A stretch of DNA of 64,000 bases, from NCBI GenBank assembly GCA_019038695.1, contig JAHOYZ010000007.1:186001-250000 (forward strand), given 5' to 3'. Under the pieces are notes generated by a model, which did not search any database, was not told the DNA's origin, and was given only the letters and a program-made list of their open reading frames with translations. Positions 44,868-63,898 of the stretch are shown in pieces. This DNA comes from Candidatus Zixiibacteriota bacterium. Its GTDB lineage: Bacteria; Zixibacteria; MSB-5A5; GN15; FEB-12. Within the stretch, counting starts at the first letter, position 1, and each line of letters starts with the position of its first letter. Both the position numbers and the translations under genes were made by a program.

Positions 44868-45827
44868 ATGATCGACCAAACTCGATACATCCTTATCTGG
44901 CTAATTGCGACTGTTCTCGGTCTGTCCGGAATCGTCGAATCAGCCCGGGCTGAAACACCTATCGCGGTGTTGATGAGCGACTCGCTGACATCCACCAAGC
45001 GAACGCTTCATGGTGCCCGTAAGATGATCGTGCGCACTCACCCGGACGCTATCCTTCACACCTTCTATCTAACCCAGGCGGCTGACGACAACAAGTTGGT
45101 CATCGACTCCCTTAGATCATTATCACCGAAACTGGTACTGACTATTGGAAGCCCCGCGACCAGTTTGGCCAAGCAGAAGATAGAGGATATTCCGATTGTT
45201 TTTGCGGGCGTACTCTACCCAGTGCTATCAGGTTTCGTAGAATCGGTAGGTCGACCAGGAGGAAATATCACCGGGGCATCGCTGGATATTCCAGTTCAAA
45301 TACAATTCAAGTATTTCAAGCAGATCGTTCCCGAATTGCGCAAGGTTGGAGTTCTGTACACCGAGGCAACCGCCAGTCTTATTCGTCCGGCCACGGTGGT
45401 AGCACAAAACATGGGGCTGACGCTAACTCCAGTACTGATCTCCAATGACAAGGAGATTCCATCAGCGCTGGACTCTCTGGCAGGAATAGTTGAAGGCATC
45501 TGGTCGGTAGCAGATCCGGAACTTTTTGACCCCAAATCAACCAGGTACATTCTCCTCAACACGCTGCGTAAAGGGATACCCTTTATGGGGTTTTCACAGT
45601 ATGTCGTGGAGTCGGGTGCTCTTTTCGCCCTTGATTTTGATCACAAAGCGGTCGGCCACCAGGCAGGAGAAATCGCATCCAGAGTTTTGGCAGGAGAAGC
45701 GGCAGGAAAAATCAAGGTCTCGATCGTTGACGTCATCTGGTTCCATTATAATGAGAGAACGGCTCATCATATAAATATCGAGATCCCAGAAGATCTGGTG
45801 GCCATAGCGAAGGAGGTATATCGATGA
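44868..45827 (+). CDS. ABC-type periplasmic substrate-binding protein (TrpX-like family)
   Basis: 319 residues. Signal peptide (about 7-28, ending ESARA), then two Rossmann-like lobes of the ABC_sub_bind family. Clues are KLVLTIGSPATSLAKQKIEDIPIVFAGVLYP (read in parts, about 83-113), GRPGGNITGASLDIP and KVGVLYTEATASL. Relatives bind aromatic amino acids or other small molecules. No permease or ATPase gene is next to it; instead its stop overlaps the kinase start (ATGA). It is therefore probably a sensory subunit that presents a ligand to the kinase. The start lacks a clear ribosome site. Confidence 0.87.
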   Translation: MIDQTRYILIWLIATVLGLSGIVESARAETPIAVLMSDSLTSTKRTLHGARKMIVRTHPDAILHTFYLTQAADDNKLVIDSLRSLSPKLVLTIGSPATSLAKQKIEDIPIVFAGVLYPVLSGFVESVGRPGGNITGASLDIPVQIQFKYFKQIVPELRKVGVLYTEATASLIRPATVVAQNMGLTLTPVLISNDKEIPSALDSLAGIVEGIWSVADPELFDPKSTRYILLNTLRKGIPFMGFSQYVVESGALFALDFDHKAVGHQAGEIASRVLAGEAAGKIKVSIVDVIWFHYNERTAHHINIEIPEDLVAIAKEVYR

Positions 45828-47509
45828 GTATCTTCGAACGCCTCCATAGCATCCGTCTACAAACAAAATTTGTTCTGTCTGTCTCGACGATGCTGATCGC
45901 GAGCATGGTCGTTACCAGCGGCTTCATGATTCAGCGACAGGCTGAAGGTTTCCACCGGGAACTTACGACCAGCGGCGAGACAATGATTCGTATCCTAGCC
46001 GTCAACGCCGAGAGTGGAGTTATCTTCGAGTCGAAGTATGAACTCGACGAACTTGTGGATGTTCTGCATGGCTTCGAGGCGTTTAAGTATGCCTCTGTCC
46101 ATAACCTTGATGGGACGATACTTACCAGTTTGGGAGTCTGGGATGATAGTCCGTCAACTGAGCTAAAAATGTATTCCTTAAATAGGTCAGATCCAGCGGA
46201 TGGTCATCTTTACCTCACTCTTGAGAACGGGAGTGAATATGTCGAATTGTGGGCACCAGTGGTCTCGCGCAAAGAATCACTAAGTCGCGAAACGCTCGGG
46301 GTCACAGCCGGTTTCAACCCGTCAACCGGGTACCAGGCATCGACAGAAGTGATCGGTTCAATCAGGCTGATATTGTCACTGCAGTCGGTGAATGAGGCAA
46401 TTTCCTCAGCCCGTAATACTGCCATCATGACAACTCTCATGGTACTGATACTAGCCATTCTCATGCTGACCTTCCTGATAAGGGTCATTACAAAACCAGT
46501 AAGCATGCTGGTTGAAGTGACGGACAAAGTTGCGCACGGTGACCTTTCACAAACTGTAAATATCAATCAGAAGGATGAAATAGGTCATCTGGCCAATACC
46601 TTCAATAAGATGATTGAGTCTCTGCGACAGTCACGGAATGAGATTGAGGAATACAACCGCAACCTCGAGGAGAAGATAATCGACCGTACTATAGCTCTCG
46701 AGGAAGCTCAGTCTCAACTAATCCAGTCAGAGAAAATGGGTGCCATCGGCCAACTGGCTGCTGGTGTAGCGCACGAGCTCAATAATCCTCTCGGGGGGAT
46801 ACTGGGTTATGCACAGTTTGCACTGGAGAAGATGCATAAGAGTACCAAAGAGCATGGACCTCGCAAGGAGATCGAGGGTTACGTTCGCTATATTACATAC
46901 ATCGAAACACAAGCACGACGTTGCAAGGCGATCGTCCAAAATCTATTGCGCTTCTCTCGCTCCTCTCATGCGGCTGATGTCGAGGATATCAACCCGAATC
47001 AGGTAGTTGATGATACAGTTACTTTCGTGGAACATCAACTCCACATGAATCAGATCACGTTGAAGCGCGACCTGACTTCCAAACTGCCTATGATTCAGGC
47101 TAACGGCGGTCAGCTTCAGCAAGTTCTCACTAACTTGATAATCAACGCCATGCATGCCTCCGCACCGGATACTGAAATAACGGTCGCTACCAATTTCAGT
47201 CCGGCAGTAGGTGAATTCGGCGGCACGGTGGAGATGAAGGTGATCGACCAGGGACATGGGATTCCGCCGGAAACTCTGAAAAAGATTTTTGAGCCGTTCT
47301 TCACTACCAAGGAAGTCGGCAAGGGTACTGGTTTGGGTTTATCGCTCAGCTATGGCATTATCGCCGACCACGGCGGTGAGATAAGGGTCGATTCTGTGGT
47401 GGGCGAAGGAACAACATTTACCGTAATCCTACCGGTTCAGAGAAGCATTGTCGATACCGATAAGACAACTGGGAAGATATTTACATCTGTAGGTACTGAA
47501 GAAATCTAG
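45824..47509 (+). CDS. Membrane sensor histidine kinase
   Basis: 561 residues. Membrane helix 1 (about 16-37), periplasmic sensor of about 160 residues, helix 2 (about 201-222), HAMP (223-275: [20 protein letters not shown]), coiled coil, and a HisKA domain with His 317 in [12 protein letters not shown]. The HATPase has N-box [11 protein letters not shown]1 [10 protein letters not shown]-box FEPFFTTK and G2 [11 protein letters not shown]. The sensor starts right after a helix, like CHASE8-type modules. It is coupled to the periplasmic binding protein upstream and followed 9 nt later by a response regulator. The ligand is unknown. Confidence 0.93.
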
Positions 47510-47518
47510 GTATTCTGA

Positions 47519-47896
47519 ATGGAACGCTCAGACAAACAATCGATACTGGTGGTTGACGACGAGGAGATAATCCGGTCGTTTCTCTCTGAAGTTCTTAGCG
47601 ACGATTATGATGTCAGCCTGGCAGAGGATGGCGACAAAGCCATCGAGAAAATCAAAGAGTACCGCTACGACCTGATCATCACCGACTTAAAGATGCCGCG
47701 TATCTCTGGTGAAGAAGTGGTCAAGTTCGCCAGCGATACTGACCCAAACTATAAGATAATTGTCATCTCGGGTTTTTCGAGTCTGCACACAGTTAGCCAG
47801 TCGATCAACAATGGAGCGTGTGCGTTCCTGTCCAAGCCGTTTTCCATAAAGGAACTTATGCAGACGGTTGCGACCACTATGGAAGAGAAGGACTAA
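47519..47896 (+). CDS. Single-domain response regulator
   Basis: 125 residues, receiver domain only. Acidic pair Asp-Asp-Glu in VVDDEE (12-16), phospho-acceptor Asp 56 in IITDLKMP, Ser 83 in VISGFS, Lys 105 in FLSKPF. With no output domain it can act as a phosphorelay link or bind a target protein directly. It lies between the coupled kinase and a second stand-alone receiver, with a 9-nt gap on one side and a 3-nt gap on the other. Confidence 0.93.
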   Translation: MERSDKQSILVVDDEEIIRSFLSEVLSDDYDVSLAEDGDKAIEKIKEYRYDLIITDLKMPRISGEEVVKFASDTDPNYKIIVISGFSSLHTVSQSINNGACAFLSKPFSIKELMQTVATTMEEKD

Positions 47897-47899
47897 CCA

Positions 47900-48268
47900 A
47901 TGGCACACATTTTAGTCATTGACGATTCTGAAGTTATTCGCAGTCTCCTCAGAGAGTACTTGTCCGAAATCGGGCACAAAGTTGATATTGCTACTGATGG
48001 TCGCCAGGGTCAGACGATGGCTCTGGAGAGAGATTACGACGCTGTCTTTTGTGATGTACATATGCCACGTCTGAATGGGTACGAAGTTTTCCGTAGTGTA
48101 GTAGCCGTCAAACCGACGGTTCGATTCGTGATGACCGATTCCTTACCCGACGAACTGGCTGATAAGGCTCTCGAGCATGGTGCTCACGCCTGCTTGACCA
48201 AACCCTTTGATCTGGACCAGGTGGGTGAGACAATGAGACAGTTATTGGAAGAAACGAAGAAAACATGA
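47900..48268 (+). CDS. Single-domain response regulator
   Basis: 122 residues. Receiver with Asp 8/Asp 9 (VIDDSE), phospho-acceptor Asp 52 (FCDVHMP), and Lys 101 (CLTKPF). The Thr/Ser position reads VMTDS. It has no output domain. It is not closely similar to the receiver upstream, so the two are not recent duplicates. Its TGA overlaps the ATG of the hybrid kinase. Confidence 0.93.
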   Translation: MAHILVIDDSEVIRSLLREYLSEIGHKVDIATDGRQGQTMALERDYDAVFCDVHMPRLNGYEVFRSVVAVKPTVRFVMTDSLPDELADKALEHGAHACLTKPFDLDQVGETMRQLLEETKKT

Positions 48269-49953
48269 GCGAACCCTCGAAAGGATCAATACGCATCATC
48301 GCTGTCGACGATGAGAGTATTGTGTTATCGCTAATCAGCGATGCCCTTGAAGATGAGGGTTATCTTATTCGCACCGCTGAGAGCGCGGCCGAGGCTCTCA
48401 ATATGCTGGCCTCAGAGCCGGCCGATCTGGTTATTACCGATATCCGTATGCCTCATATGAATGGTATCGAGATGGTAAAGCAGATTCGAGAAAATCATCC
48501 CCGTACCGGTGTCATTTTCATGACCGGGTATGCCAATCTCAATAGTGCCAAGGATGCCATCAAACACGGGGCTTTTGACTATATCATGAAGCCCTTCGAA
48601 CTACTCGAAATCCGCCAGGCCGTCCGCAAAGCGGCAGATAAGATTCACGAGGACTCAGCCGCCAAGACATCCGGTGAGCGGTTGGAGCGCCTGTCTGATC
48701 TCAACAAGATGCTTCATACGGCTGGAGATCACAATTCGATTAGCACAGTGTCACTGCACTTCGCCATGTTGCAATGTGGTACCGACCGCGGGACAGTGCT
48801 TTACTGGGACCGACAAAATTCACAGTTCAGATGTACGACCATTATCGGTGATCAGATCGATAGTCAGACGTTCGATGACACTGATCTGGCGGAGTCGATC
48901 AATAACTGCCCGACTACCGTATTTTGCGAACCGATGGTGGCTTCAATACCCGAGGAGCATCCACTTTTTCAGATTGCACTGGAACCCATCGACGTGCGCC
49001 TAACTCTTCCTCCCTGGTTTGAGACAAATGATAAAATGCTCGTAGTCCCCATTCGCCGTGGGGAGTCGCTGTATGGAGCGATCACGACGCCGGTGACAAA
49101 GAGTTCTCCTACGGTCGGTGGAACCGATATCAATCTTTTGAATATGGCCGCCAATCAACTAGCTCTGTCGCTTGAGAACCTGTTCCTGCTGGAGGAGACT
49201 CAGACTGCCTATGCGCATTTGAAGGAACTTCAGGACCAGACAATCTCCCTGGAGAAGATGGCTACGCGAGGCGAAATGTCGGCTGAAATCGGTCACGAAC
49301 TCAACAACTTTCTGGGTGTCGTGGTGGGCAATTTCTCCCTCCTGGAAGCTTTGCTGATCAAGAAATCCTACGACAATGTGGACCGGCACCTAAAAACCAT
49401 CTTTGACCAGATCGAGAGGATGAAGCGTTTCACCACCAATCTCATGGATCTATCCATCACCGCTTCCCAGAAAGAGATTGTGGACTTTCAGGACCTCCTG
49501 AGCGAAGTCATCGATTTTCTAAAACCACAGAAGAGATTCAGCGATGTCTCCATTGATCTCGTCGTCACAGAGACTAACATTCCTTTCGAAGCCGATCCAA
49601 CTCACATTCAACAACTACTTTACAATATCTTCAATAATGCCGCTGATGCCACACAGGGTTGTGAATTGCGTCAGATCTCAGTCAAGGTAAACCTCGATCC
49701 TGACAACCAGCACTTTAAGCTCATTATCTCCGACACCGGCATCGGCATTGAGCCCGAGCGGTTGGCCAGAATGTTCAATGAACGGTTTACTACCAAAAAG
49801 GGCGGTCATGGATTTGGTCTGATGGTATGCAAACGTATTGTCGATGGTCATTCCGGCCAGCTTGAAGTTGACTCGATCCCTGGAGAGGGAACAACTTTCC
49901 GTATCCGCTTCCCTCTGGCATCTGGAATCACTGCCGCAGCGTGTCCTTGTTGA
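48265..49953 (+). CDS. Receiver-GAF-like-histidine kinase hybrid
   Basis: 562 residues, no membrane segment. N-terminal receiver: AVDDES (13-18), Asp 59 in VITDIRMP, Lys in IMKPFE. A middle region (about 145-315) resembles a GAF domain (LYGAITTPVTK, LLNMAANQLALSLENL). The kinase has His 344 in EIGHELNNFLG, N-box NIFNNAADATQ, G1 ISDTGIGIEPE, and a shortened F/G2 region FTTKKGGHGFGLMVCKRI. Having both receiver and kinase in one soluble protein suits a relay step below the membrane kinase. The C-terminus ends TAAACPC, with two Cys in the last three residues. Convergent to the NtrC-type gene. Confidence 0.92.
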   Translation: MSEPSKGSIRIIAVDDESIVLSLISDALEDEGYLIRTAESAAEALNMLASEPADLVITDIRMPHMNGIEMVKQIRENHPRTGVIFMTGYANLNSAKDAIKHGAFDYIMKPFELLEIRQAVRKAADKIHEDSAAKTSGERLERLSDLNKMLHTAGDHNSISTVSLHFAMLQCGTDRGTVLYWDRQNSQFRCTTIIGDQIDSQTFDDTDLAESINNCPTTVFCEPMVASIPEEHPLFQIALEPIDVRLTLPPWFETNDKMLVVPIRRGESLYGAITTPVTKSSPTVGGTDINLLNMAANQLALSLENLFLLEETQTAYAHLKELQDQTISLEKMATRGEMSAEIGHELNNFLGVVVGNFSLLEALLIKKSYDNVDRHLKTIFDQIERMKRFTTNLMDLSITASQKEIVDFQDLLSEVIDFLKPQKRFSDVSIDLVVTETNIPFEADPTHIQQLLYNIFNNAADATQGCELRQISVKVNLDPDNQHFKLIISDTGIGIEPERLARMFNERFTTKKGGHGFGLMVCKRIVDGHSGQLEVDSIPGEGTTFRIRFPLASGITAAACPC

Positions 49954-50027: not shown

Positions 50028-51380
50028 TTAGGACAGGGTGATATCAAGGTCCTTGATAAGTTTGCGCAAATTGGAGGGATCGACACCGAGTTCCCGAGCC
50101 GAGGAACTGATATTCCGGCTATTGCGATCCAAAACCTGGATTAAGGTCGTTCGCTTGAAATCGCGGGTCCGCTCAGACAACGTTCCTTCCGAGTGACTGG
50201 AGCCGACACTTGGGTTCAGGTAGTCGGATACCTCCTTATGAGTGATATAGTATGAAGGGGAAAGATCAATCAGCGATTCGACCATCTCCCTCAACTCCCG
50301 GACATTACCCGGCCAGTCAAACTCAATCACAAAATCGCGCGCAGATGGTTCAAATACTTTCAGGCTGCAGTCGGTCTTTGCACAGTATCGCTCCACAAAA
50401 TAGTCAAGCAACTCAGGTATGTCCTCACGGCGGTCCTTCAGGGGAGGCAACTCGATCACCACTCCCTTCAGTCGATAGTACAGATCCTTCCTGAATCGAC
50501 CCTCCTCCACCGCCCTGTCTAGATCGTGATGAGTGGCGCAAATCAGGCGCACATCTACTTTTACAACTTCCGGGGAGCCGATTCGATGCATATCTCCGGT
50601 CTCAATGACGCGGAGAATTTTGCCCTGGGTCGTCATGTCCAAGTCGCCGATCTCATCTAAAAACAGGGTGCCACCATGCGCATACTCGAACATCCCTTGA
50701 CGATCGGCAACAGCCCCGGTAAAGGAACCGCGCAGATGCCCAAAGAGTTCAGACTCCACCAGATCCGACGATTTGTGATCGCAGCTGAAAATGGCCAGCT
50801 GTTTGTCAGCCAGAAGACTCCTCTTGTGAATGGCTTGCGCGACCAACTCCTTGCCTGTGCCAGTAGGACCAAGGATCATCACTTTGGATCCGGTCGGACC
50901 AATTTTTTCGATGGTCTGGAAGACTTTCAACATAATGGACGATGAGCCCACCATATCATATTGGGAGCGGGCCAACTGAATCAGATCCATTCGATTGGCT
51001 TTGAGTTGATGGAAAGCAACTGCGTTTTTCACCGCCCGCTGAAGTCGAACGGGGCGTTCATTCTTACCCACATAATCGAACGGGCGATAATCCTGCTCAA
51101 TTTCATCTTCGCTGTAGTCACCTGGATAACCGGTATGAAAGATAATGGGGAGATTGGGAACAATATCCTTCAACCGAGAGGCAGTCGCGAGACCATCCAT
51201 CTGAGCCATGCGAATATCAAGTACGACAGCGTCAAAGTGCTGATCGTCCAGCAGAGTCGAAATCGCCTCCGGTCCGGAGGAAGCCAGGCTAACCTCGAAC
51301 TCATCTGAGAACGACTCAGACATAGCCTCAAGAACAGCGGGGTCATCATCGACAATTAAGATTTTGCCAAGCTTATTCAT
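50028..51380 (-). CDS. NtrC-family sigma-54-dependent response regulator
   Basis: 450 residues. Receiver (about 5-120) with Asp 55 in VVLDIRMA and Lys 106 in a diverged VGKNERP segment. The AAA+ domain (about 142-375) has Walker A GPTGTGKE (171-178), the sigma-54 contact loop GSFTGA (218-223; the common form is GAFTGA), Walker B GTLFLDEIGD (237-246) and a sensor region with FDWPGNVRELREMVE. A Fis-type helix-turn-helix follows (about 424-446). It activates sigma-54 promoters, possibly including the flagellin and pilin candidates here, though neither is shown to be a target. It starts 14 nt after the large PAS kinase, which is probably its cognate kinase. Confidence 0.93.
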   Translation of the reverse strand: MNKLGKILIVDDDPAVLEAMSESFSDEFEVSLASSGPEAISTLLDDQHFDAVVLDIRMAQMDGLATASRLKDIVPNLPIIFHTGYPGDYSEDEIEQDYRPFDYVGKNERPVRLQRAVKNAVAFHQLKANRMDLIQLARSQYDMVGSSSIMLKVFQTIEKIGPTGSKVMILGPTGTGKELVAQAIHKRSLLADKQLAIFSCDHKSSDLVESELFGHLRGSFTGAVADRQGMFEYAHGGTLFLDEIGDLDMTTQGKILRVIETGDMHRIGSPEVVKVDVRLICATHHDLDRAVEEGRFRKDLYYRLKGVVIELPPLKDRREDIPELLDYFVERYCAKTDCSLKVFEPSARDFVIEFDWPGNVRELREMVESLIDLSPSYYITHKEVSDYLNPSVGSSHSEGTLSERTRDFKRTTLIQVLDRNSRNISSSARELGVDPSNLRKLIKDLDITLS

Positions 51381-51394
51381 TGATATCCAGCACG

Positions 51395-54300
51395 TTACGC
51401 GGTGTTATCTATGAACCGTGTAAGTAGTATAACGAATTCCGTTCCAGTGTCAAGACTGGATCGAACGGTGATCTCTCCGCCGTATAGAGTGACTATTTTC
51501 TTGACGATGGCCAAACCCAGTCCGGTTCCGGTTCGAGGCTTGGTACTGAAAAACGCATCAAAGACTTTCGGGAGGTTCTCGTCAGGAATACCGGTTCCCG
51601 TATCTGTGATCCTGATCCGCATTCTCTCGTCATCCACTACCTCACCCGCAATGTTAAGGCGAGGCTGGTCAGCATCAGCCAACGCATCCAGGGCATTATT
51701 TATCAGATTGTTAAACACACTGTGGGCGTGTTCCTCACTACAAACACAGGACAGGTCATCAGGCAGATCGACCGATAGTTCGACGCCGATCTCCTCGATA
51801 CGAAAACGCAGGTCATCGATGATATTCTGCACCACGGACATGATATTAACCGATTCCTGCTTCTTACGGTTTTCCAAGCGGGCATATTCGGTGACCAATT
51901 CTGTCATACTGATGGCCCGCTCAACCGCGCTGGAGGTCATTCGTAGTAGTCTGGATTGCTTGTCTTTGTGATTCGTCGGTGCCCCTTTGATCTCGGTTTG
52001 AAGTTTCTCCAGGGCTACCATGGCCGGATAAAGAGAATTGTATATTTCGTGGGACACTCCTCCGGCGATCTCTCTAATCTGGTTGTACCGTACTTGCTCT
52101 GCCCGTCGAATCTCTTCCTCGGCTCGTTTGCGGTCGGTGATGTCGAGATGAATTCCGACCATTCTAACTGGTTCGTCGTTGCTATCCCGTTCGGTTACCT
52201 GACCACAATTGAGAACCCATTTCCACTCACCGCTTTTCGTTCTCATCCTGTGCTCTACTTCAAAAGCCGGTGTCTCCCCGGCAAAGTGCACATACGCAGC
52301 CCTTCTCAGAGCCGCCCTATCGTCCGGATGGACGAGCTCTCTGAAGGACTGAACGTCGCCGTCGATCTCCTCCAAGGTGTAGCCAAGCATTTCAGCCCAT
52401 TCGTTATTGCGAATGACTGCACGCGTTTTTAGATTAAGATCCCACAATCCAAGGCTGGCACCATGTAAAGCCATATCCAGACGCGTCTCGCTCTCTCGCA
52501 ATGCATCTTCGGCACGGTTGCGCTCGGTGATGTCGATAAGCGTGCTTTGCATACCTATGACTGACCCGTCAGCATCGGTCAAGGGCAACGAATTGTTCAA
52601 AACGGTGATGACTCGCCCGTCCTTTCGGACCAGTTGATGTTCATAGTTAACAATACGCTCACCGGAGTTAAGCTGGGCGTGAGCATCTATTACCAATGTT
52701 GGGTCTGCGTCAACATCGGGAATGCTCATACTCAGCAGCTCGCTCCTGGAATAGCCCAGAAGTTCAAGGCCGGCTTGGTTTGAGTCTATGAAGTTCTTGT
52801 CAAAATCAAAGATGTAAACGGCAGCAACAGATTCATCGAATATCCCTCGATATTTCTCTTCACTCGCCCACAGCGCTTCCTCGGCCCGTTTGCGTTCGGT
52901 AATATCAAGCACAGCACCAAACGCGCCGGTGTAGTTGCCATCATCGTCAAACTGGGGAGCCACCGAAACCATGATTGTCTTTGTGATTCCCTTAGCGGTA
53001 TTAATCCGAAGTTCATACGATGATGAAACTCCTGTCCGGCGCATAGCTGTCTGGTCTGTCAGAATTATACTCTGCTCGTCAGAAAGATAATCGGTGACTT
53101 GTCTCCCAACAAGGTCGTCAACGGAGTCCTCATCGAAAATGTCAGCCATAGCCGGGTTGCAGAACTGAATAATCTCGTTCTCATCAACCTGAGCCAAACC
53201 TTCCACGACCGAGTTGAAGAGTTCGCGGTAGCGTACCTGTGACGCTTCAAGTCGATCACTTGCCTCTTTGCGTTCGGTCATATCTACAGCGACACCTCTG
53301 AGCCCAACCGTTTTGCCGTTGCGTACAATCGGATTGGTATATGTTAGAACGGGGAAAGTGTTGCCGTCCTTTCTCAGAGCGATGTATTCGTGGCCATCCG
53401 GAAGTTCGCCCCGCAGACGTTTCTGCATGTTAACCAGGAGTCTCTCGATCTCCTCGGGCATGAAAAGCTGCCGTACGTTAACCCCGGCCTCGACATCACT
53501 CTGGTCGTAACCATAAGATTCCAGTGCGCTACGATTAGCAAAGGTCACCTGACCGTGCGAGTTGAGTTCATAGACTGCCTGAGGCAGCAAATCGACCATT
53601 TCGCGGAATCTTTCCTCTGATGCTTCGAGAGCTTCCAGGGCGTGTTTTTGTGCCGTGATGTCGCGGGCAATGCCAACTATAGCTATTGGTTTGCCATCCT
53701 CATCCGAGATTAGCGAACAGGTCATGAAAGTGGGAAAGGTGGTACCATCCTTGCGGACATGCCCGATCTCTCCTTCGTAAGTCCCATCGCGAAACACATG
53801 TTCATTAAACGGAATAACTTCATCCACATTCTGCTGCGGTGTATGAAAAATGGAGAGGTGTTTACCGATCAATTCGTCCTGGCTGTAACCGTGGGCGCAT
53901 GCCCAGGAGACATTAACGAACTGGATATGGCCGTCCAGGTTGGCTATGGCGACTTCATCCATAGTCTGTTCAACCGCCTGACCCAGAAGATGCAATTGAG
54001 TCTCAGCTTCACGCCATTCGGTGATGTCTCGTACGATACCACTGATTGCTACGACATTTCCTTCTGCATCCCTTATCGGTGCCTGGATAGTGTGAAAGAG
54101 ATGTGCTTCTTCGTTAATTGGCAAGATACGGATAGCAGTTGCTACTTCACCACTAAATGCAATGTTGTCTATCTCCCTTATTGTGGAAGCAGATTCTGGA
54201 TCAAAGAGTTCCTCTGGAGTGTGTCCCAGTAGCTCCGAGGCTGAACATCCAAAAAGGCGTTCCATGGCGGGGTTGACATATGTATAGCGGTGATCCATAT

Positions 54301-56794
54301 CTTTGCAGAAAATACAGTCTTGAGCCGAATTGGCGATGGAACGGTATCGCTCCTCACTCTCCCTCAGAGCTTCGTCGGCCTCCCTGCGGTCAGTAATATC
54401 ACGAACAACAACGGTGAAACCGGTCAACTCATGGTCCACACCAAAACGTGGGGATATCTTTGCATCAAACCACCGTTCCTTACCGCTGATTTCCAAGGGA
54501 TAATCGATCTCTTGTACTTCGTTCGTGTTGGATACCGCCTCAAGAGCACTCTCGAAGCTGTTTGCAACATCTGCCGGCAGTATCTCCTTGTAAGATTTCC
54601 CCAGAAAAACTTCGGGGGGCGCATACAAACCACTAGCCTTCTCAGGCTGATGGTATTCCACAAAAACACCCTCCTTATCAATCACGAATACCAGATCGTC
54701 CATTGAAGACAAGATTGATTCAAATCGGGATACGCTGTGCTGCAGTTCTTTTTCCAGCACCTTGAGATCGGTGATATCATGAGCTATGACCAGTGCTGAG
54801 ACCACTCGACCAGAGTCATCACGGAAGGGTTGCAGATTAGTAGCATACCATCGCCACTGATCAGAAACCCACGTCAGTACATCAGTATTTGTCCCCTGTG
54901 CGAAGTCGATAACCCTTCGAACGCCTTCAACTTGCCGGTCAGCTACTTCCTTGGGGAAGACATCCCACATTGTTTTGCCCACCAGTTCATCGGGTGTCAG
55001 CCCCTTGGCTCTGGCAGCCAGTTCGTTTGCGAAAAGAAAATGACCAGTACGGTCAATAAGGGCAACTGTGGCCCCGGCATTTTCAACGAGAAGACGATAC
55101 TTCTCTTCGCTGGACCGAAGCTCCGCATTCAGAACCGACAACTCCGCCGTCCGTTCATCGACCCGGCGTTCCAACTTCTCCCGCGCCCCATCGACAGTAT
55201 CCTTCTGGGCTGAGATCAGCCTGTTCTTGCGCTTTATCCTGAACCAGGACATAACAAGCAGGATAATGACAACGGCCGTCGGCAACAATGCAACCATGGC
55301 CAATAATCCGGGACGGCGCAGAAAGACTGTGCTCCATTGTCTCTGCTCCAGCTCAAGAACATAGTGAACCAGCCCCCTATCTACGGAAAGCACCAGACTA
55401 AGTCTTCCCTCGGAGTGCTCCCTCATTCCGACAGATGATTCCCGTACCTGCGGCACTGCCTCAAGATGAAGCTGAGCCAAAAGATTCAGATTCCGGTCCA
55501 GAAGGAGCAGATTGTTATCACGGTTTGACAGCAGGATCTGGTGACGACCATTACCGAGGATATCGTCAACCGTCCAGAATTCGGCCTGCGAAGTCAACCT
55601 GGTTCTGCATTTGACGACGAATTTCTGATCATATACTACCAGCTGCTTATCGGAAAACAGCGTTAGAATCTCCGGTCTACCATCGTTGTCCACATCCGCC
55701 AGAGAACAGCTGTACATGATCGACTGCGGGATGTCTGCAACGCTGTCTATCAATTCCCCGGTTGTTGACAGAACCAGAAACGACTGGACAGGCTTCTCTG
55801 GGCTGTCTGTGTTCGGGGCAGTAGGCTCCGACAGGCGAGGAACAACGATCTCCGGCAAACCGTCACCATCGATATCTATAACCACCGGAAGTGCGCGGTC
55901 GAAAACGCCCCCAACCTCGTGTTGCCACATCAGCTCACCACTTCGATTAACTCCTACGACGTAAGCATGTTGGTCGTCCATTGTCGGCGACTCGGCGGCA
56001 TTCCCCTTTGATGTCAGACCAAACACAATCAAGGGGTCTTTCCCCATTCCATTTGGTTCCACGTAAACATTGGACCGAGAGATTATACCGGCATATGGCA
56101 CGCGCCAGAGAATTTCCTCACCAAGCGCATCAACACATAGTAGCTCGCGTGGATACAGATCATAACCGACATCAACCCCCACCAATAACTCAGCCAAGCC
56201 GTCTTTATCTATATCACAATGACCACAAATGATCCCCCGACCATCCCAATATCCGTTTCCGTTGCGGTCGTCTCCCACAACAAGCAGGAGGTGAGCTTTC
56301 CTCCCCTGCCGAGGGCTATAAATATCAAGCCACAGGGAATCGAGGTGAACGTAAATAAAAGCTACTTCGCACAACCCATCACCGTCCAAATCGAACGAAT
56401 AGTCATACGAGATACTGGCTGCTTTCACGTTGTAATGACTGATGGCTTTTCGTTTTGCAAAATCGTCATAGAACACGATCGCCGTGATGGTATCGTCGGG
56501 CTTCCAGTTGTTCTGAATGTGGTAGTTGATTGAGGAAGAGCCTGAGCAGTCGGCCAGGTGAACAATCTTGCTTCTGATCGACTCTCCCCTGCTTGATAGG
56601 TCAGATAATTTAGAACTGATAACAAAACGCCATGGGAGCAGGAGAGGATCGACGTCCGTATTATCCAGAAAAGTGTATTCCTCCTCTTCACTCGGCATAC
56701 AGGCGAGTGCAAGAGCCAACAGACACAAAGAGAGGATCACAATAATCCACGAAGAATAATAGCCGACAGAACGGCGACGTGATTCGTTCCGCAT
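51395..56794 (-). CDS. Giant sensor kinase: FG-GAP propeller sensor, eight PAS domains, histidine kinase
   Basis: 1799 residues. An N-terminal signal/anchor (about 14-32, ending LALALAC, possibly a lipobox) leads to a periplasmic region (33-492). This region has FG-GAP-like calcium motifs: FDLDGDGLCEVAF, CDIDKDGLAELLV, IDIDGDGLPEIVV and VDNDGRPEILTL, plus a weaker fifth. A second helix lies at about 493-518, then a coiled coil. Eight PAS units follow, each closed by a D-I/M-T motif (HDITDLK, RDITDRR, RDITEWR, RDITAQK, VDMTERK, LDITERK, IDITERN, LDITDRK). HisKA has His in GGVSHEIYNSLYP, and the HATPase has NNLINNALDALAD, TDTGTGIPDE and TGTGLGLAIVKK. It is encoded 14 nt before the NtrC-type gene. 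The signal sensed is unknown. Confidence 0.93.
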   Translation of the reverse strand: MRNESRRRSVGYYSSWIIVILSLCLLALALACMPSEEEEYTFLDNTDVDPLLLPWRFVISSKLSDLSSRGESIRSKIVHLADCSGSSSINYHIQNNWKPDDTITAIVFYDDFAKRKAISHYNVKAASISYDYSFDLDGDGLCEVAFIYVHLDSLWLDIYSPRQGRKAHLLLVVGDDRNGNGYWDGRGIICGHCDIDKDGLAELLVGVDVGYDLYPRELLCVDALGEEILWRVPYAGIISRSNVYVEPNGMGKDPLIVFGLTSKGNAAESPTMDDQHAYVVGVNRSGELMWQHEVGGVFDRALPVVIDIDGDGLPEIVVPRLSEPTAPNTDSPEKPVQSFLVLSTTGELIDSVADIPQSIMYSCSLADVDNDGRPEILTLFSDKQLVVYDQKFVVKCRTRLTSQAEFWTVDDILGNGRHQILLSNRDNNLLLLDRNLNLLAQLHLEAVPQVRESSVGMREHSEGRLSLVLSVDRGLVHYVLELEQRQWSTVFLRRPGLLAMVALLPTAVVIILLVMSWFRIKRKNRLISAQKDTVDGAREKLERRVDERTAELSVLNAELRSSEEKYRLLVENAGATVALIDRTGHFLFANELAARAKGLTPDELVGKTMWDVFPKEVADRQVEGVRRVIDFAQGTNTDVLTWVSDQWRWYATNLQPFRDDSGRVVSALVIAHDITDLKVLEKELQHSVSRFESILSSMDDLVFVIDKEGVFVEYHQPEKASGLYAPPEVFLGKSYKEILPADVANSFESALEAVSNTNEVQEIDYPLEISGKERWFDAKISPRFGVDHELTGFTVVVRDITDRREADEALRESEERYRSIANSAQDCIFCKDMDHRYTYVNPAMERLFGCSASELLGHTPEELFDPESASTIREIDNIAFSGEVATAIRILPINEEAHLFHTIQAPIRDAEGNVVAISGIVRDITEWREAETQLHLLGQAVEQTMDEVAIANLDGHIQFVNVSWACAHGYSQDELIGKHLSIFHTPQQNVDEVIPFNEHVFRDGTYEGEIGHVRKDGTTFPTFMTCSLISDEDGKPIAIVGIARDITAQKHALEALEASEERFREMVDLLPQAVYELNSHGQVTFANRSALESYGYDQSDVEAGVNVRQLFMPEEIERLLVNMQKRLRGELPDGHEYIALRKDGNTFPVLTYTNPIVRNGKTVGLRGVAVDMTERKEASDRLEASQVRYRELFNSVVEGLAQVDENEIIQFCNPAMADIFDEDSVDDLVGRQVTDYLSDEQSIILTDQTAMRRTGVSSSYELRINTAKGITKTIMVSVAPQFDDDGNYTGAFGAVLDITERKRAEEALWASEEKYRGIFDESVAAVYIFDFDKNFIDSNQAGLELLGYSRSELLSMSIPDVDADPTLVIDAHAQLNSGERIVNYEHQLVRKDGRVITVLNNSLPLTDADGSVIGMQSTLIDITERNRAEDALRESETRLDMALHGASLGLWDLNLKTRAVIRNNEWAEMLGYTLEEIDGDVQSFRELVHPDDRAALRRAAYVHFAGETPAFEVEHRMRTKSGEWKWVLNCGQVTERDSNDEPVRMVGIHLDITDRKRAEEEIRRAEQVRYNQIREIAGGVSHEIYNSLYPAMVALEKLQTEIKGAPTNHKDKQSRLLRMTSSAVERAISMTELVTEYARLENRKKQESVNIMSVVQNIIDDLRFRIEEIGVELSVDLPDDLSCVCSEEHAHSVFNNLINNALDALADADQPRLNIAGEVVDDERMRIRITDTGTGIPDENLPKVFDAFFSTKPRTGTGLGLAIVKKIVTLYGGEITVRSSLDTGTEFVILLTRFIDNTA

Positions 56795-56877
56795 ACCTTA
56801 AGATACACATAATCAGGCAATATTCAAAGAAGTTAGACGCAACGGGGATGGTGAGGGATAAATTGGAATGGGTGCGT

Positions 56878-56897
56878 CCTTGCTTAAACAAGCAAGG
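56878..56897. repeat. Perfect palindrome CCTTGCTT / AAGCAAGG
   Basis: 8-bp arms with loop AAAC. It lies about 85 nt upstream of the giant kinase start and next to a longer inverted repeat. Confidence 0.7.
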
Positions 56898-56904
56898 AGA
56901 AAGC

Positions 56905-56947
56905 CCTGTCTGTTTGGGCTTGAGCACACGGGAGGGATACAGACAGG
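56905..56947. repeat. Inverted repeat CCTGTCTGT / ACAGACAGG
   Basis: Perfect 9-bp arms (56905-56913, 56939-56947) with a 25-nt loop. Imperfect pairing continues outward, and the loop itself has a GCCC/GGGC pairing option. Confidence 0.7.
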
Positions 56948-57118
56948 ACTTCTTGGGGGTCTTAGTATTTTCAAGTAAAATAGGTATTTTCTGAAATTTG
57001 TCAAGGCGGTTCGTCCTGTTTACAGTGGATTATTGACTCCACATCTATCCGCTCTGACATCGTAATACTCATCAGTAAATCATGGTCATTGGGACCCTTT
57101 TTCGAAGCGGTTACCCCC

Positions 57119-57270: not shown

Positions 57271-59670
57271 ATGTGCCCGAAATACAAGGTAGTTGCACGA
57301 TTGGCAATTGTACTGATTCTGAATCTTTTGTGTTCCGTATCTACAATTGAGGCCGAGCCGATAATCGCTGACCATGTGGCGGTCACTCAGTTTGATAATA
57401 TTCCCACTGACACGATTGTCGCCATAGGATCCAACTTCAATATCTACTACGTACATACATCTCACGGCAGCCAAATAGTGACCGGTATTGACATGGTGGA
57501 GATCGAAGATCCAACATACGATCCTCCTCCTTTCTACAGACCCGGTGATGACCTCGGACATAATGGTGACACTTCCTGGGTACCGAGTACTCGTGTCTAT
57601 CTTAACAACCACGCCGAATGCAATATGGCTATGTTCTCCTGGTGTGGGGGATGTTCGGACAATACCGTCGAAGGGATCAACATCTATCTGAATAAGATGG
57701 ATGAACTCGAAGCGGATTATCCTTCGGTGCAGTTTATATATATGACGGGGCACCTTGACGGAACCGGGACAGGCGGTAACTTGTACGCATGCAACAACCA
57801 GATCAGAGACTACTGCACAACCAACGACAAAGTGTTGTTTGACTTTGCCGACATAGAAAGTTGGGACCCTGACGGCAATTACTATCCCGACGAAACCGAC
57901 GCCTGTAACTGGTGCAATGATTGGTGCGCTACTCACACATGTCCCAGCTGCGGCAGTTGTGCCCACTCACATTGTTTCAATTGTTATCTCAAAGGGAAAG
58001 CATGGTGGTGGATGATGGCCCGTGTTTCCGGGTGGTCGCCATCGCAAGACCCTATCCCTCATATAGTTACAACATTACCTACAGTCAACGAGCTTAATGT
58101 ATCCAAGAACTCTGACATTACGGTGACGTTCGATCATGACATGGACGCTGCCACCATAGGCAGCCCTTCCTTTGTGGTCGCAGGTCAATTCACCGGCCTG
58201 CATAACGGTTCCTATAGCTTTGCAGGACCGCCTGCGAACCGGGCGACGTTTGTCCCGGCCGTGCCGTTTGCCGTAGGTGAGATTGTGACGGTTGTTATAA
58301 CCACCGGAATCGAATCCAATGAGAACATCCCCCTCGACAGCAGCTACACCTGGTCGTTTACGGTTGAGGTGGAGGCCGGCACCGGCCTCTTTAGTCCCGG
58401 CGCAAATCACAGCGTGGTAGAGTATCCGCTGGCCATGATTGCGGCCGATCTCGACGGAGATAACTATGTCGATCTCGCCGTGGTCGGTTCCGGTAATGTT
58501 TCGGTCTTGATGAACGGCGGCGACGGTTCCTTTTACGATGAGGTTGTCTATCCGGTGGGTCAGTGGCCCTTCGGGATATGCGCTGCTGATTTCGATTTGG
58601 ATGGTCACATCGACCTGGCCACGGTCAACGAAACCACCGAGCTGCAGGTCTATGTCTCGATCCTGATGAACAATAGTGACGGCACTTTCGCCTCGTTCAT
58701 GAATTATGTGGCCGGGACGACAGGCGGCCAGCCGGTCTCGATCGCGGCCGCCGATCTCAATGGCGACGGCTATCCTGACCTGGCCACGGCCAACAATGGG
58801 GACAACACTGTGTCAGTGCTGTCGGGCGTCGGTGATGGTAGTTTCTCTATTTTTACCGAGTATGCTGTTGGCCCGGGACCAGGCGTTATACGAGCCGCCG
58901 ATATTGATAACGATGCTGATATTGATCTGATGGTTGGCAACATCTACACCAACAGTTTTTCCGTTTTGCTCAACAATCGTTATGGCACTTTCGCTCCGCA
59001 CACAACCTACGCTTGCTACGATCATCCGCGCTCAATCGTAGTAGCCGATTTCGACGGCGATTCGTATCTTGATATCGCCACCGCCAGCGAAGACGGAGAG
59101 TACATGGGTTTCCTTTCGGTTGTCCCTAATCTGGGCGATGGCACCTTTGGCTCCTTCGCGAGCAAATACCTGGGGTACAGTATGGGCCTGTCGATATGTG
59201 CTGCTGATCTTGACAACGAGGGCACTCTTGATCTGGCCGTGACGTTGGACTACGACGGGCTCGACATCCTCTTAAACAACGGGTATGGATCGTTTGGAAC
59301 CTATACCGATTACACCGTCGGCTCCCACCCGGCAGCGTTGATTGCGGCCGACCTGGATGGTGACGGTGATATCGATCTGGCCACAGCTAATCAGTACGAC
59401 GCCAATGTGACGGTGTTGTACAATCAGAATCCTGCTTGCTGTGAAAATCGCGGAAACGTGGATCATAACAATGGTACTGGTGAACCAATCGACATTGCCG
59501 ATTTGACATACCTTGTGAGTTACCTCTTTAGATCCGGTCCCCCTCCTCCCTGTGAAGAGGAAGGCAACATTGACGGAATAATCGATACTGGCGGACCGAT
59601 AGATATCGCTGACTTGACGTACCTTGTGGCGTACCTCTTCACAGGCGGTGCTACACCGCCTGCGTGTTAG
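57271..59670 (+). CDS. Secreted Cys-rich/Ig-like/FG-GAP protein with dockerin-like tail
   Basis: 799 residues. Signal peptide to about 29. Residues 30-250 form a domain I do not recognise, with YYVHTSHGSQIVTGIDM and FIYMTGHLDGTGTG. It then has a Cys-rich stretch of about 28 residues (CNWCNDWCATHTC, CPSCGSCAHSHCFNC). Its HTSHGS motif recalls SGNH-type hydrolases, which is weak evidence only. An Ig-like Big_5 domain follows (about 262-370: SKNSDITVTFDHDMD), then about seven FG-GAP/VCBS repeats (LDGDNYVDLAVVG, LNGDGYPDLATAN, FDGDSYLDIATAS, LDGDGDIDLATAN). The C-terminus has two dockerin-like units built on PIDIADLTYLV. Probably surface-attached or released. Confidence 0.82.
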   Translation: MCPKYKVVARLAIVLILNLLCSVSTIEAEPIIADHVAVTQFDNIPTDTIVAIGSNFNIYYVHTSHGSQIVTGIDMVEIEDPTYDPPPFYRPGDDLGHNGDTSWVPSTRVYLNNHAECNMAMFSWCGGCSDNTVEGINIYLNKMDELEADYPSVQFIYMTGHLDGTGTGGNLYACNNQIRDYCTTNDKVLFDFADIESWDPDGNYYPDETDACNWCNDWCATHTCPSCGSCAHSHCFNCYLKGKAWWWMMARVSGWSPSQDPIPHIVTTLPTVNELNVSKNSDITVTFDHDMDAATIGSPSFVVAGQFTGLHNGSYSFAGPPANRATFVPAVPFAVGEIVTVVITTGIESNENIPLDSSYTWSFTVEVEAGTGLFSPGANHSVVEYPLAMIAADLDGDNYVDLAVVGSGNVSVLMNGGDGSFYDEVVYPVGQWPFGICAADFDLDGHIDLATVNETTELQVYVSILMNNSDGTFASFMNYVAGTTGGQPVSIAAADLNGDGYPDLATANNGDNTVSVLSGVGDGSFSIFTEYAVGPGPGVIRAADIDNDADIDLMVGNIYTNSFSVLLNNRYGTFAPHTTYACYDHPRSIVVADFDGDSYLDIATASEDGEYMGFLSVVPNLGDGTFGSFASKYLGYSMGLSICAADLDNEGTLDLAVTLDYDGLDILLNNGYGSFGTYTDYTVGSHPAALIAADLDGDGDIDLATANQYDANVTVLYNQNPACCENRGNVDHNNGTGEPIDIADLTYLVSYLFRSGPPPPCEEEGNIDGIIDTGGPIDIADLTYLVAYLFTGGATPPAC

Positions 59671-62689: not shown

Positions 62690-63055
62690 ATGAAAATAAG
62701 ACATTTAAAGATTCAAGACGGGTTCACTCTACTCGAAGTGTTGATCTCCATGGTTATTCTCGGAATCGCGATACTGGTACTGCTGAACATGGCCATGGTG
62801 GCGGTTACCGGTAATGATTGGTCAAACCAAGCCACAACCGCGACCCAGGCTATTCAGCAAAAAATGGAGCAGCTCCGCAGTACAGCCAACCCGGTTAGCG
62901 GAATGGAAACTGTCGATGGTGTGAATCTATACTGGACCATTTCGAAGCCACAGAACCACTTGCGTAAAGTCTATCTATCAGCAATGTGGGAGGACATGAC
63001 CTCGGAATACAAGTACACTAATGTAACGGCCTTCATCAAGACCGATTCCATATAG
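62690..63055 (+). CDS. Type IV pilus minor pilin, PilV-like
   Basis: 121 residues. The prepilin peptidase site is DGFTLLEVL after an 11-residue basic leader, with cleavage after Gly and Glu at +5. A hydrophobic helix follows (LISMVILGIAILVLLNMAM). The globular part is short. Membrane-embedded pilin-like proteins of this size start pilus or pseudopilus assembly at the tip. It stands first in the operon, before PilW-like and PilX-like genes, 9 nt before the next gene. It could equally be a pseudopilin of a type II-like system. Confidence 0.85.
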   Translation: MKIRHLKIQDGFTLLEVLISMVILGIAILVLLNMAMVAVTGNDWSNQATTATQAIQQKMEQLRSTANPVSGMETVDGVNLYWTISKPQNHLRKVYLSAMWEDMTSEYKYTNVTAFIKTDSI

Positions 63056-63064
63056 AGGGACGAG

Positions 63065-63898
63065 ATGAAAAAACGAAATAACAGAATCGCGAATCAGCGC
63101 GGGACCTCGTTCCTCGAGGTTATGGTGGCACTGGCCATTATGGGTGTCATAACAGCAGCGATATTCAAGCTATACATAACCTCCCACAAGAATTACATGG
63201 CTCAGAATGAGGTGATCAACGTACAGCAAAGTGCTCGGGCGTCAATCGACGTACTAACTCGTCAAATTCGTATGGCGGGCTACGGTTTGCCGCTTGGTGT
63301 TCCAGCCATTACGTCGTCAAACACTAATCCTGACACAATCGCAATCTGCTACCGCAACAACGACTGCGATACATACCTCGCTGCTGCTATGCCCCAGCCT
63401 TCAGCCGAGTTGAAATGTGCAACTGATGTGTCCTGTTTCTCTGATGGCCAGTGGGTGTATATCTTTGAGCCAGATTCAGGAGGCGGCGAGTGGTTTGAAA
63501 TAACACATGTTCAGGCAGCAGCCAAGCACTTACAACACAATACCATGTCGTTGTCCAAGAAGTATGGCAAGGACGCCATTCTTATGTCCATGGTCTCAAT
63601 CAAGTTCTATGTGGACAACACCACAGATCCGGATCATCCGTATCTCATGATCGAGTTGCCGGGACAGGGACCGCAGATTTTCGCCGACAACATCATTGAT
63701 CTGCAATTTCAGTATCGGATGAAAAACGGTGTGGTGATGGATTCGATTATTGTCCCGGATGATGTTCGCGAGGTTCAACTAAGCCTTACCGGACGCTCAA
63801 TGTACGAGGATACCGACGTGGCTGACCTGGGCGAAGGGGATGGTTTCCGAAGACGTACATTTTCAACATCGGTATTTTTACGCAATGTTGGCATCTAA
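63065..63898 (+). CDS. Type IV pilus minor pilin, PilW-like
   Basis: 277 residues. Leader with RGTSFLEVMVALAIMGV, a prepilin site (G then TSFLE, with Glu at +5), then the helix. The globular part contains QQSARASIDVLTRQIRMAGYGLPLG, a pattern typical of PilW, and a C-terminal region with DNIIDLQFQYRMKNG and VQLSLTGRSMYED. Residues 85-140 have four Cys (YRNNDCDTYL, LKCATDVSCF) that could form disulphides. Part of the minor-pilin cluster. Confidence 0.85.
   Translation: MKKRNNRIANQRGTSFLEVMVALAIMGVITAAIFKLYITSHKNYMAQNEVINVQQSARASIDVLTRQIRMAGYGLPLGVPAITSSNTNPDTIAICYRNNDCDTYLAAAMPQPSAELKCATDVSCFSDGQWVYIFEPDSGGGEWFEITHVQAAAKHLQHNTMSLSKKYGKDAILMSMVSIKFYVDNTTDPDHPYLMIELPGQGPQIFADNIIDLQFQYRMKNGVVMDSIIVPDDVREVQLSLTGRSMYEDTDVADLGEGDGFRRRTFSTSVFLRNVGI

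Follow-up and report, generated by a model that had tools for sequence, protein, structure and literature searches.

A very large histidine kinase of Candidatus Zixiibacteriota with a predicted eight-bladed propeller sensor and apparent assembly from exchanged parts

Architecture of the kinase, its sensor and its partner

The window, by which we mean the whole stretch of 64,000 nucleotides of Candidatus Zixiibacteriota DNA that was analysed, contains a sensor histidine kinase gene that encodes 1799 amino acids in a single uninterrupted frame (51395..56794, minus strand). The order from N- to C-terminus is export signal, beta-propeller, membrane helix, eight PAS domains and histidine kinase; all features of the kinase given below are likewise on the minus strand. 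An earlier, sequence-only reading had described the anatomy as propeller, calcium loops, single helix, eight PAS domains, kinase and NtrC-type regulator, and it was right: the frame, Pfam and NCBIfam agree on a kinase of 1799 residues with eight PAS domains. In our view, this very large bacterial protein serves in signalling and probably senses an extracellular cue by means of a calcium-stabilised eight-bladed propeller.

Hydropathy analysis delimits an N-terminal hydrophobic export signal with a terminal Cys (aa 1-32, 56699..56794) and places two hydrophobic segments on either side of the sensor (aa 14-32 and approximately 493-520). The lipobox is marginal in this protein (ALAC) and clear in many relatives (LLAGC, FGGC). 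Behind the sensor, the model helix and hydropathy together define a short helix, the membrane helix and the start of a coiled coil (aa 487-539, 55178..55336). Two hydrophobic segments bracketing the sensor and one long helix in the model are what is expected from the earlier description of a propeller joined to the PAS units via one helix. Two inverted repeats that can form hairpins (13 nt at 92% and 9 nt perfect) lie in what is probably the 5' leader of the gene (56877-56951); an Rfam search of the window, these hairpins included, returned no family.

The structure prediction for the propeller that the sequence-only reading had suggested was carried out with AlphaFold2. On the basis of a seven-row alignment of the window protein and related loci, which yielded a model of moderate confidence (pLDDT 78.6, pTM 0.75), the sensor is predicted to be all-beta, its 32 strands leading into one long helix, and the model and its fold matches both indicate an exported beta-propeller (aa 55-484, 55343..56632). 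If each blade is taken to have four strands and the first strand to complete the last blade, the propeller has eight blades. The sensor is therefore not integrin-like in blade number, since the integrin alpha propeller has seven, and of the earlier description the FG-GAP propeller stands, while the term integrin-like is loose. FG-GAP (PF01839) was detected by Pfam with 23.3 bits, above the curated cut-off of 22.1, and FG-GAP_3 (PF13517) with 23.9 bits, below its cut-off of 26.9; a relative, L022, reaches 31.2 bits with the latter. The top fold matches in the PDB, obtained with Foldseek and VIA-align, were propellers, with BamB as best structural match (Z 24.5, rmsd 3.9 over 320 residues, 12% identity) and designed eight-bladed propellers including Cake8 among the other close folds. 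In sequence-profile comparisons, the nearest solved chains were designed Bagel/Cake propellers and PL11 lyases (Bagel8 5e-24, PL11 2e-4). A propeller fold with calcium loops in the A-B hairpins, as predicted here, characterises the FG-GAP/VCBS propellers.

The kinase core (aa 1557-1799, 51398..52126) consists of a DHp domain, with His1582 in the motif HEIYN, and a HATPase_c domain (7.6e-24 in Pfam). The N-box, DTGTG and GTGLG are intact as well, and although the HEIYN motif is intact, HisKA scored 14.4 bits, below its cut-off of 26.9. An NtrC-type regulator of 450 aa, which had been recognised beside the kinase before and is borne out by Pfam and its translation, starts 14 bp downstream of the kinase gene (50028..51380, minus strand) and comprises a receiver, a sigma-54 AAA+ domain with a GSFTGA loop and a weak Fis-type HTH. 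Response_reg and Sigma54_activat matched strongly; HTH_8 was weak (E 0.09) and is clear in the regulators of relatives. Operon structure and co-inheritance suggest that kinase and regulator form a putative two-component pair. The genome encodes sigma-54 and has about 17 strong matches to NtrC-type activators, and a strict scan of the window for -24/-12 sigma-54 promoters found no site. Convergent with the regulator gene lies a compact signalling operon (44868-49953, plus strand) for an ABC substrate-binding protein, a HAMP kinase, two lone receivers and a receiver-kinase hybrid.

Divergent from the kinase gene, a protein of 799 aa with six FG-GAP_3 stretches and a Big_5 domain is encoded (57271-59670, plus strand), which might possibly be a target or partner of the kinase; no counterpart was seen beside the kinase of a congener. 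Further along the window, two consecutive genes carry pilin-type N-terminal methylation motifs (62690-63898, plus strand).

Calcium loops, the presumed ligand face and proposed signalling

The sensor contains five matches to the pattern [DN]x[DN]x[DN]Gxx[DE], compared with a mean of 0.012 in 20,000 shuffled sequences, none of which reached five. Four of these calcium-type loops are located in A-B inter-strand hairpins: DLDGDGLCE in blade 2 (aa 135-143, 56366..56392), DIDKDGLAE in blade 3 (aa 194-202, 56189..56215), DIDGDGLPE in blade 5 (aa 307-315, 55850..55876) and DVDNDGRPE in blade 6 (aa 367-375, 55670..55696), with conservation in 14, 14, 13 and 9 of 14 relatives, respectively. The fifth, DRNGNGYWD, connects blade 2 to blade 3 (aa 176-184, 56243..56269) and is located on the presumed ligand face. 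The Asp-rich calcium loops described in the sequence-only reading thus reappear far above the shuffled background and, as far as the hairpin loops are concerned, are kept among relatives. Because those of blades 2, 3 and 5 are present in 13-14 of 14 relatives, calcium is probably structural and may hold the propeller blades together.

The A-B loops of a propeller lie opposite its usual ligand face, which is formed by the D-A and B-C loops. On this face, as assigned by strand topology, mean loop conservation is higher in blades 1-4 than in blades 5-8 (Mann-Whitney p 0.009, in a comparison chosen after the alignment had been seen). The loops of blades 1-4 include W-D-G, GYDLYPR in the B-C loop of blade 3 (aa 210-216, 56147..56167) and SKGNAA...MDDQ in the B-C loop of blade 4 (aa 262-275, 55970..56011); the latter two lie in a presumed ligand-face patch identified by conservation. 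GYDLYPR is nearly invariant among the type-A sensors, and it is recognisable as GRDLxPR in many of the second, type-B sensors; the related motifs DS, GxDxTGxGxW and GRDLxPR are kept in these much more distant proteins. Outside the calcium loops, the residues with the highest conservation belong to the opposite-face loops of blades 1-4 and are likely to represent a putative ligand site, and we infer that this site is common to sensor types A and B.

Taken as a whole, the explanation that we consider best, and more likely than not, is that the kinase is the sensor half of a Zixiibacteriota two-component system. Calcium would hold the blades of the propeller together, and a periplasmic ligand, which may be a small molecule, a glycan or a partner protein, would bind to the conserved opposite-face loops of blades 1-4. 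Surface contact, glycans and calcium, the stimuli proposed in the sequence-only reading, are candidates. Binding would shift the single membrane helix of the dimer, and the shift would travel through the PAS array as a coiled-coil movement. Each PAS module could add a cytoplasmic input such as redox state, a metabolite or a gas, permitting or blocking the signal. The kinase would then set the phosphorylation of the neighbouring regulator via His1582, leading to activation of sigma-54 promoters.

Alternatively, the propeller could be a protein-docking platform similar to BamB that reads the state of the envelope or a partner lipoprotein and has no soluble ligand. The BamB chains are the best structural matches (Z 23-24.5), and many relatives carry a lipobox. 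However, the identity to BamB is as low as 11-12%, many other, unrelated propellers follow within 1-2 Z units, and the compact conserved loop patch fits a ligand equally well, so that we judge docking to be unlikely, if still deserving of attention. Calcium itself might be the signal, with its binding to the DxDxDG loops folding or locking the propeller and thereby switching the kinase. Such a role would be compatible with the large excess of calcium-type loops over chance, five in all, and with the position of the loop at aa 176-184 on the presumed ligand face. However, near-universal hairpin loops in blades 2, 3 and 5 are the pattern of structural sites, and similar FG-GAP repeats abound outside this kinase in the same genome, which has 134 FG-GAP_3 matches; a signalling role of calcium seems improbable to us. 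On contigs 25 and 30 of this genome, frames of 2283 and 2118 aa are packed with FG-GAP_3 repeats.

A main sensory role of the PAS array, with a vestigial or merely anchoring propeller, would suit the number of eight PAS domains and their rapid turnover between species. It is nevertheless a poor candidate, because relatives without PAS domains keep the same sensor, kinase type and regulator, and because the sensor motifs stay conserved while the PAS content turns over. Since this sensor or kinase type does without the array in the PAS-less relatives, the array in the preferred ligand-driven scheme is probably a modulator of the signal rather than its primary switch.

Family distribution, PAS modules and mixed ancestry

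The sequence-only reading implied that the architecture is rare, which did not hold. Among 132 genomes of the phylum Zixiibacteriota, 67 were matched by a sensor query and 58 by a sensor profile at 1e-10, and FG-GAP_3 is abundant in the genome itself. A pattern scan of genome contigs built from the window protein alone found no relative; a scan with two short patterns from a six-row alignment retrieved six loci, all from Candidatus Zixiibacteriota or GN15. No 16S gene was detected in the genome that carries the window. Many family members have 740-800 aa, with the same sensor fused directly to a kinase without any PAS domain, and are often followed by the same regulator. A second group comprises kinases of 1,200-2,100 aa with 4-8 PAS domains and a distant type-B sensor, some of them with an additional GAF domain. 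The search for the combination of FG-GAP, PAS and kinase that had been proposed earlier thus gave a divided answer: the sensor-kinase is widespread, but its close relatives mostly lack the PAS array. Next to the kinases of relatives, no conserved target beyond the regulator was found, and secreted peptidases occurred inconsistently in some neighbourhoods. Judged by these profile matches, the sensor family is common across an uncultured phylum, and the generic FG-GAP is the only named model for it here. In the literature searched, neither FG-GAP propeller kinases nor comparable kinases from Zixibacteria are described.

Pfam and, independently, the sensory_box model of NCBIfam each detected eight PAS units, which are spaced by 122-130 aa and all end in a D-I/M-T motif. 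Module comparison with the congener kinase, which has five PAS domains, gave counterparts for PAS 2 (54383..54745; 74% to congener PAS 2), PAS 4 (53645..54010; 59-60% to congener PAS 1), PAS 5 (53267..53629; 56% to congener PAS 3) and PAS 6 (52889..53251; 70% to congener PAS 5). Four congener units therefore match units 4, 2, 5 and 6 in that order, from which it follows that units 2 and 4 have been exchanged. The remaining congener unit has no counterpart in the window protein and, conversely, four units of the window protein have none in the congener kinase: PAS 1 (54761..55120), which is 56% identical to a module of L075, PAS 3 (54011..54367), PAS 7 (52517..52873), for which no close relative was found, and PAS 8 (52127..52501), with a best relative at 37%. 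PAS 4 and PAS 6 additionally match, at 49% and 48% (47-49% over the comparisons made), PAS 4 and PAS 1, respectively, of L055, a kinase of 1558 aa from the same genome (contig 12, 4975-9651 of this locus) that has about nine PAS modules and no propeller. Throughout the family, clustered modules recur at differing positions, with the order kept in 308 and reversed in 33 comparisons, which are not independent of each other. By these module comparisons, the PAS modules are shuffled and drawn from a set common to the kinases of the phylum.

The phylogenies of the individual parts differ. In the kinase tree, the window protein and its congener fall within a 12-row clade of PAS-array kinases (support 99/94), and in the regulator tree they group with the PAS-array locus L077 (100/99). 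In the sensor tree, the two share a 13-row clade with 11 PAS-less rows (100/100), which is well separated from the type-B sensors. Forced agreement was rejected by AU tests for the kinase (p 0.0022 and 0.00027), the sensor (p 0.0025) and the regulator (p 5e-8), with unrooted trees and with groups that were chosen after the trees had been seen. Raw identities point in the same direction: between L063 and the window protein, they amount to 50% for the kinase and 73% for the AAA domain of the regulator, but only 25% for the sensor. We consider it very unlikely that long branches or the alignment of distant sensors created the conflict, because, even though sensor types A and B share about 25% identity and long branches lead to two of the sensor rows, support is 98-100 on either side, every AU test rejects agreement, kinase and regulator agree independently and the L063 identities repeat the pattern.

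As the trees conflict and the AU tests reject agreement, sensor and kinase-regulator pair derive from different lineages. By phylogenetic evidence, the window protein is a chimera with a sensor of the PAS-less type and a kinase and regulator of the PAS-array lineage, and it seems to be the product of an exchange of ready-made parts. Another type-A sensor, L027, is followed by at least two PAS domains before the contig ends, and the combination of type-A sensor and PAS domains may therefore have arisen more than once. A single lineage for all PAS-array kinases was considered and rejected, as fewer than two changes do not account for the kinase tree. What these comparisons add to the earlier description is evolutionary, namely a sensor swap and PAS module shuffling within a phylum-wide family of propeller kinases. 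For a wider claim we see the arguments in even balance: that this is an undescribed, phylum-wide family of eight-bladed sensors with one conserved ligand site across two deep types, and that propeller sensors, PAS modules and kinase-regulator pairs have repeatedly recombined into very large kinases, with the window protein as a clear case of such a swap.

Significance and comparison with known systems

The family constitutes a natural experiment in the rewiring of signalling, in which the same type of sensor occurs with zero, five or eight PAS domains from a shared set, and in which kinase and regulator travel together. The evolutionary swaps reveal the junctions where one propeller, PAS unit or kinase can take the place of another, and this is testable in laboratory chimeras. 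The sensor family may report a signal that is important to an uncultured phylum.

FG-GAP/VCBS propellers such as the PL11 rhamnogalacturonan lyases and the Bagel/Cake designs have the repeat signature and the calcium-type loops in common with the window sensor; these comparison proteins are lyases, surface proteins or designs, whereas the window propeller is the sensor of a kinase. BamB, the best structural match, is likewise an exported propeller but has no kinase, and it is not known to have FG-GAP calcium loops. On the side of the kinase and regulator, the best-scoring named families in NCBIfam belong to NtrB/NtrC-like, AtoS/AtoC and ZraS/ZraR systems (AtoS for the kinase, ZraR and NtrC for the regulator). 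However, the scores for AtoS, ZraR and NtrC are far below the equivalog cut-offs, and the sensor domain has no match to those systems.

The hybrid two-component systems (HTCS) of Bacteroidetes similarly combine a large periplasmic beta-propeller sensor with a membrane anchor and a histidine kinase. HTCS have two seven-bladed Reg_prop propellers plus a YYY domain, and the phosphorelay domains are contained in one chain (PMC3243724). In contrast, the window kinase has a single eight-bladed FG-GAP propeller, a PAS array, a separate gene for an NtrC-type regulator and no YYY domain; Pfam gave no match to Reg_prop or Y_Y_Y in this protein. Multi-PAS histidine kinases have tandem sensory-box PAS domains in front of a HisKA kinase, as is the case for the eight PAS domains of the window kinase. 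Different from these kinases, its array sits between a propeller and the kinase, and relatives of the kinase also exist free of PAS domains.
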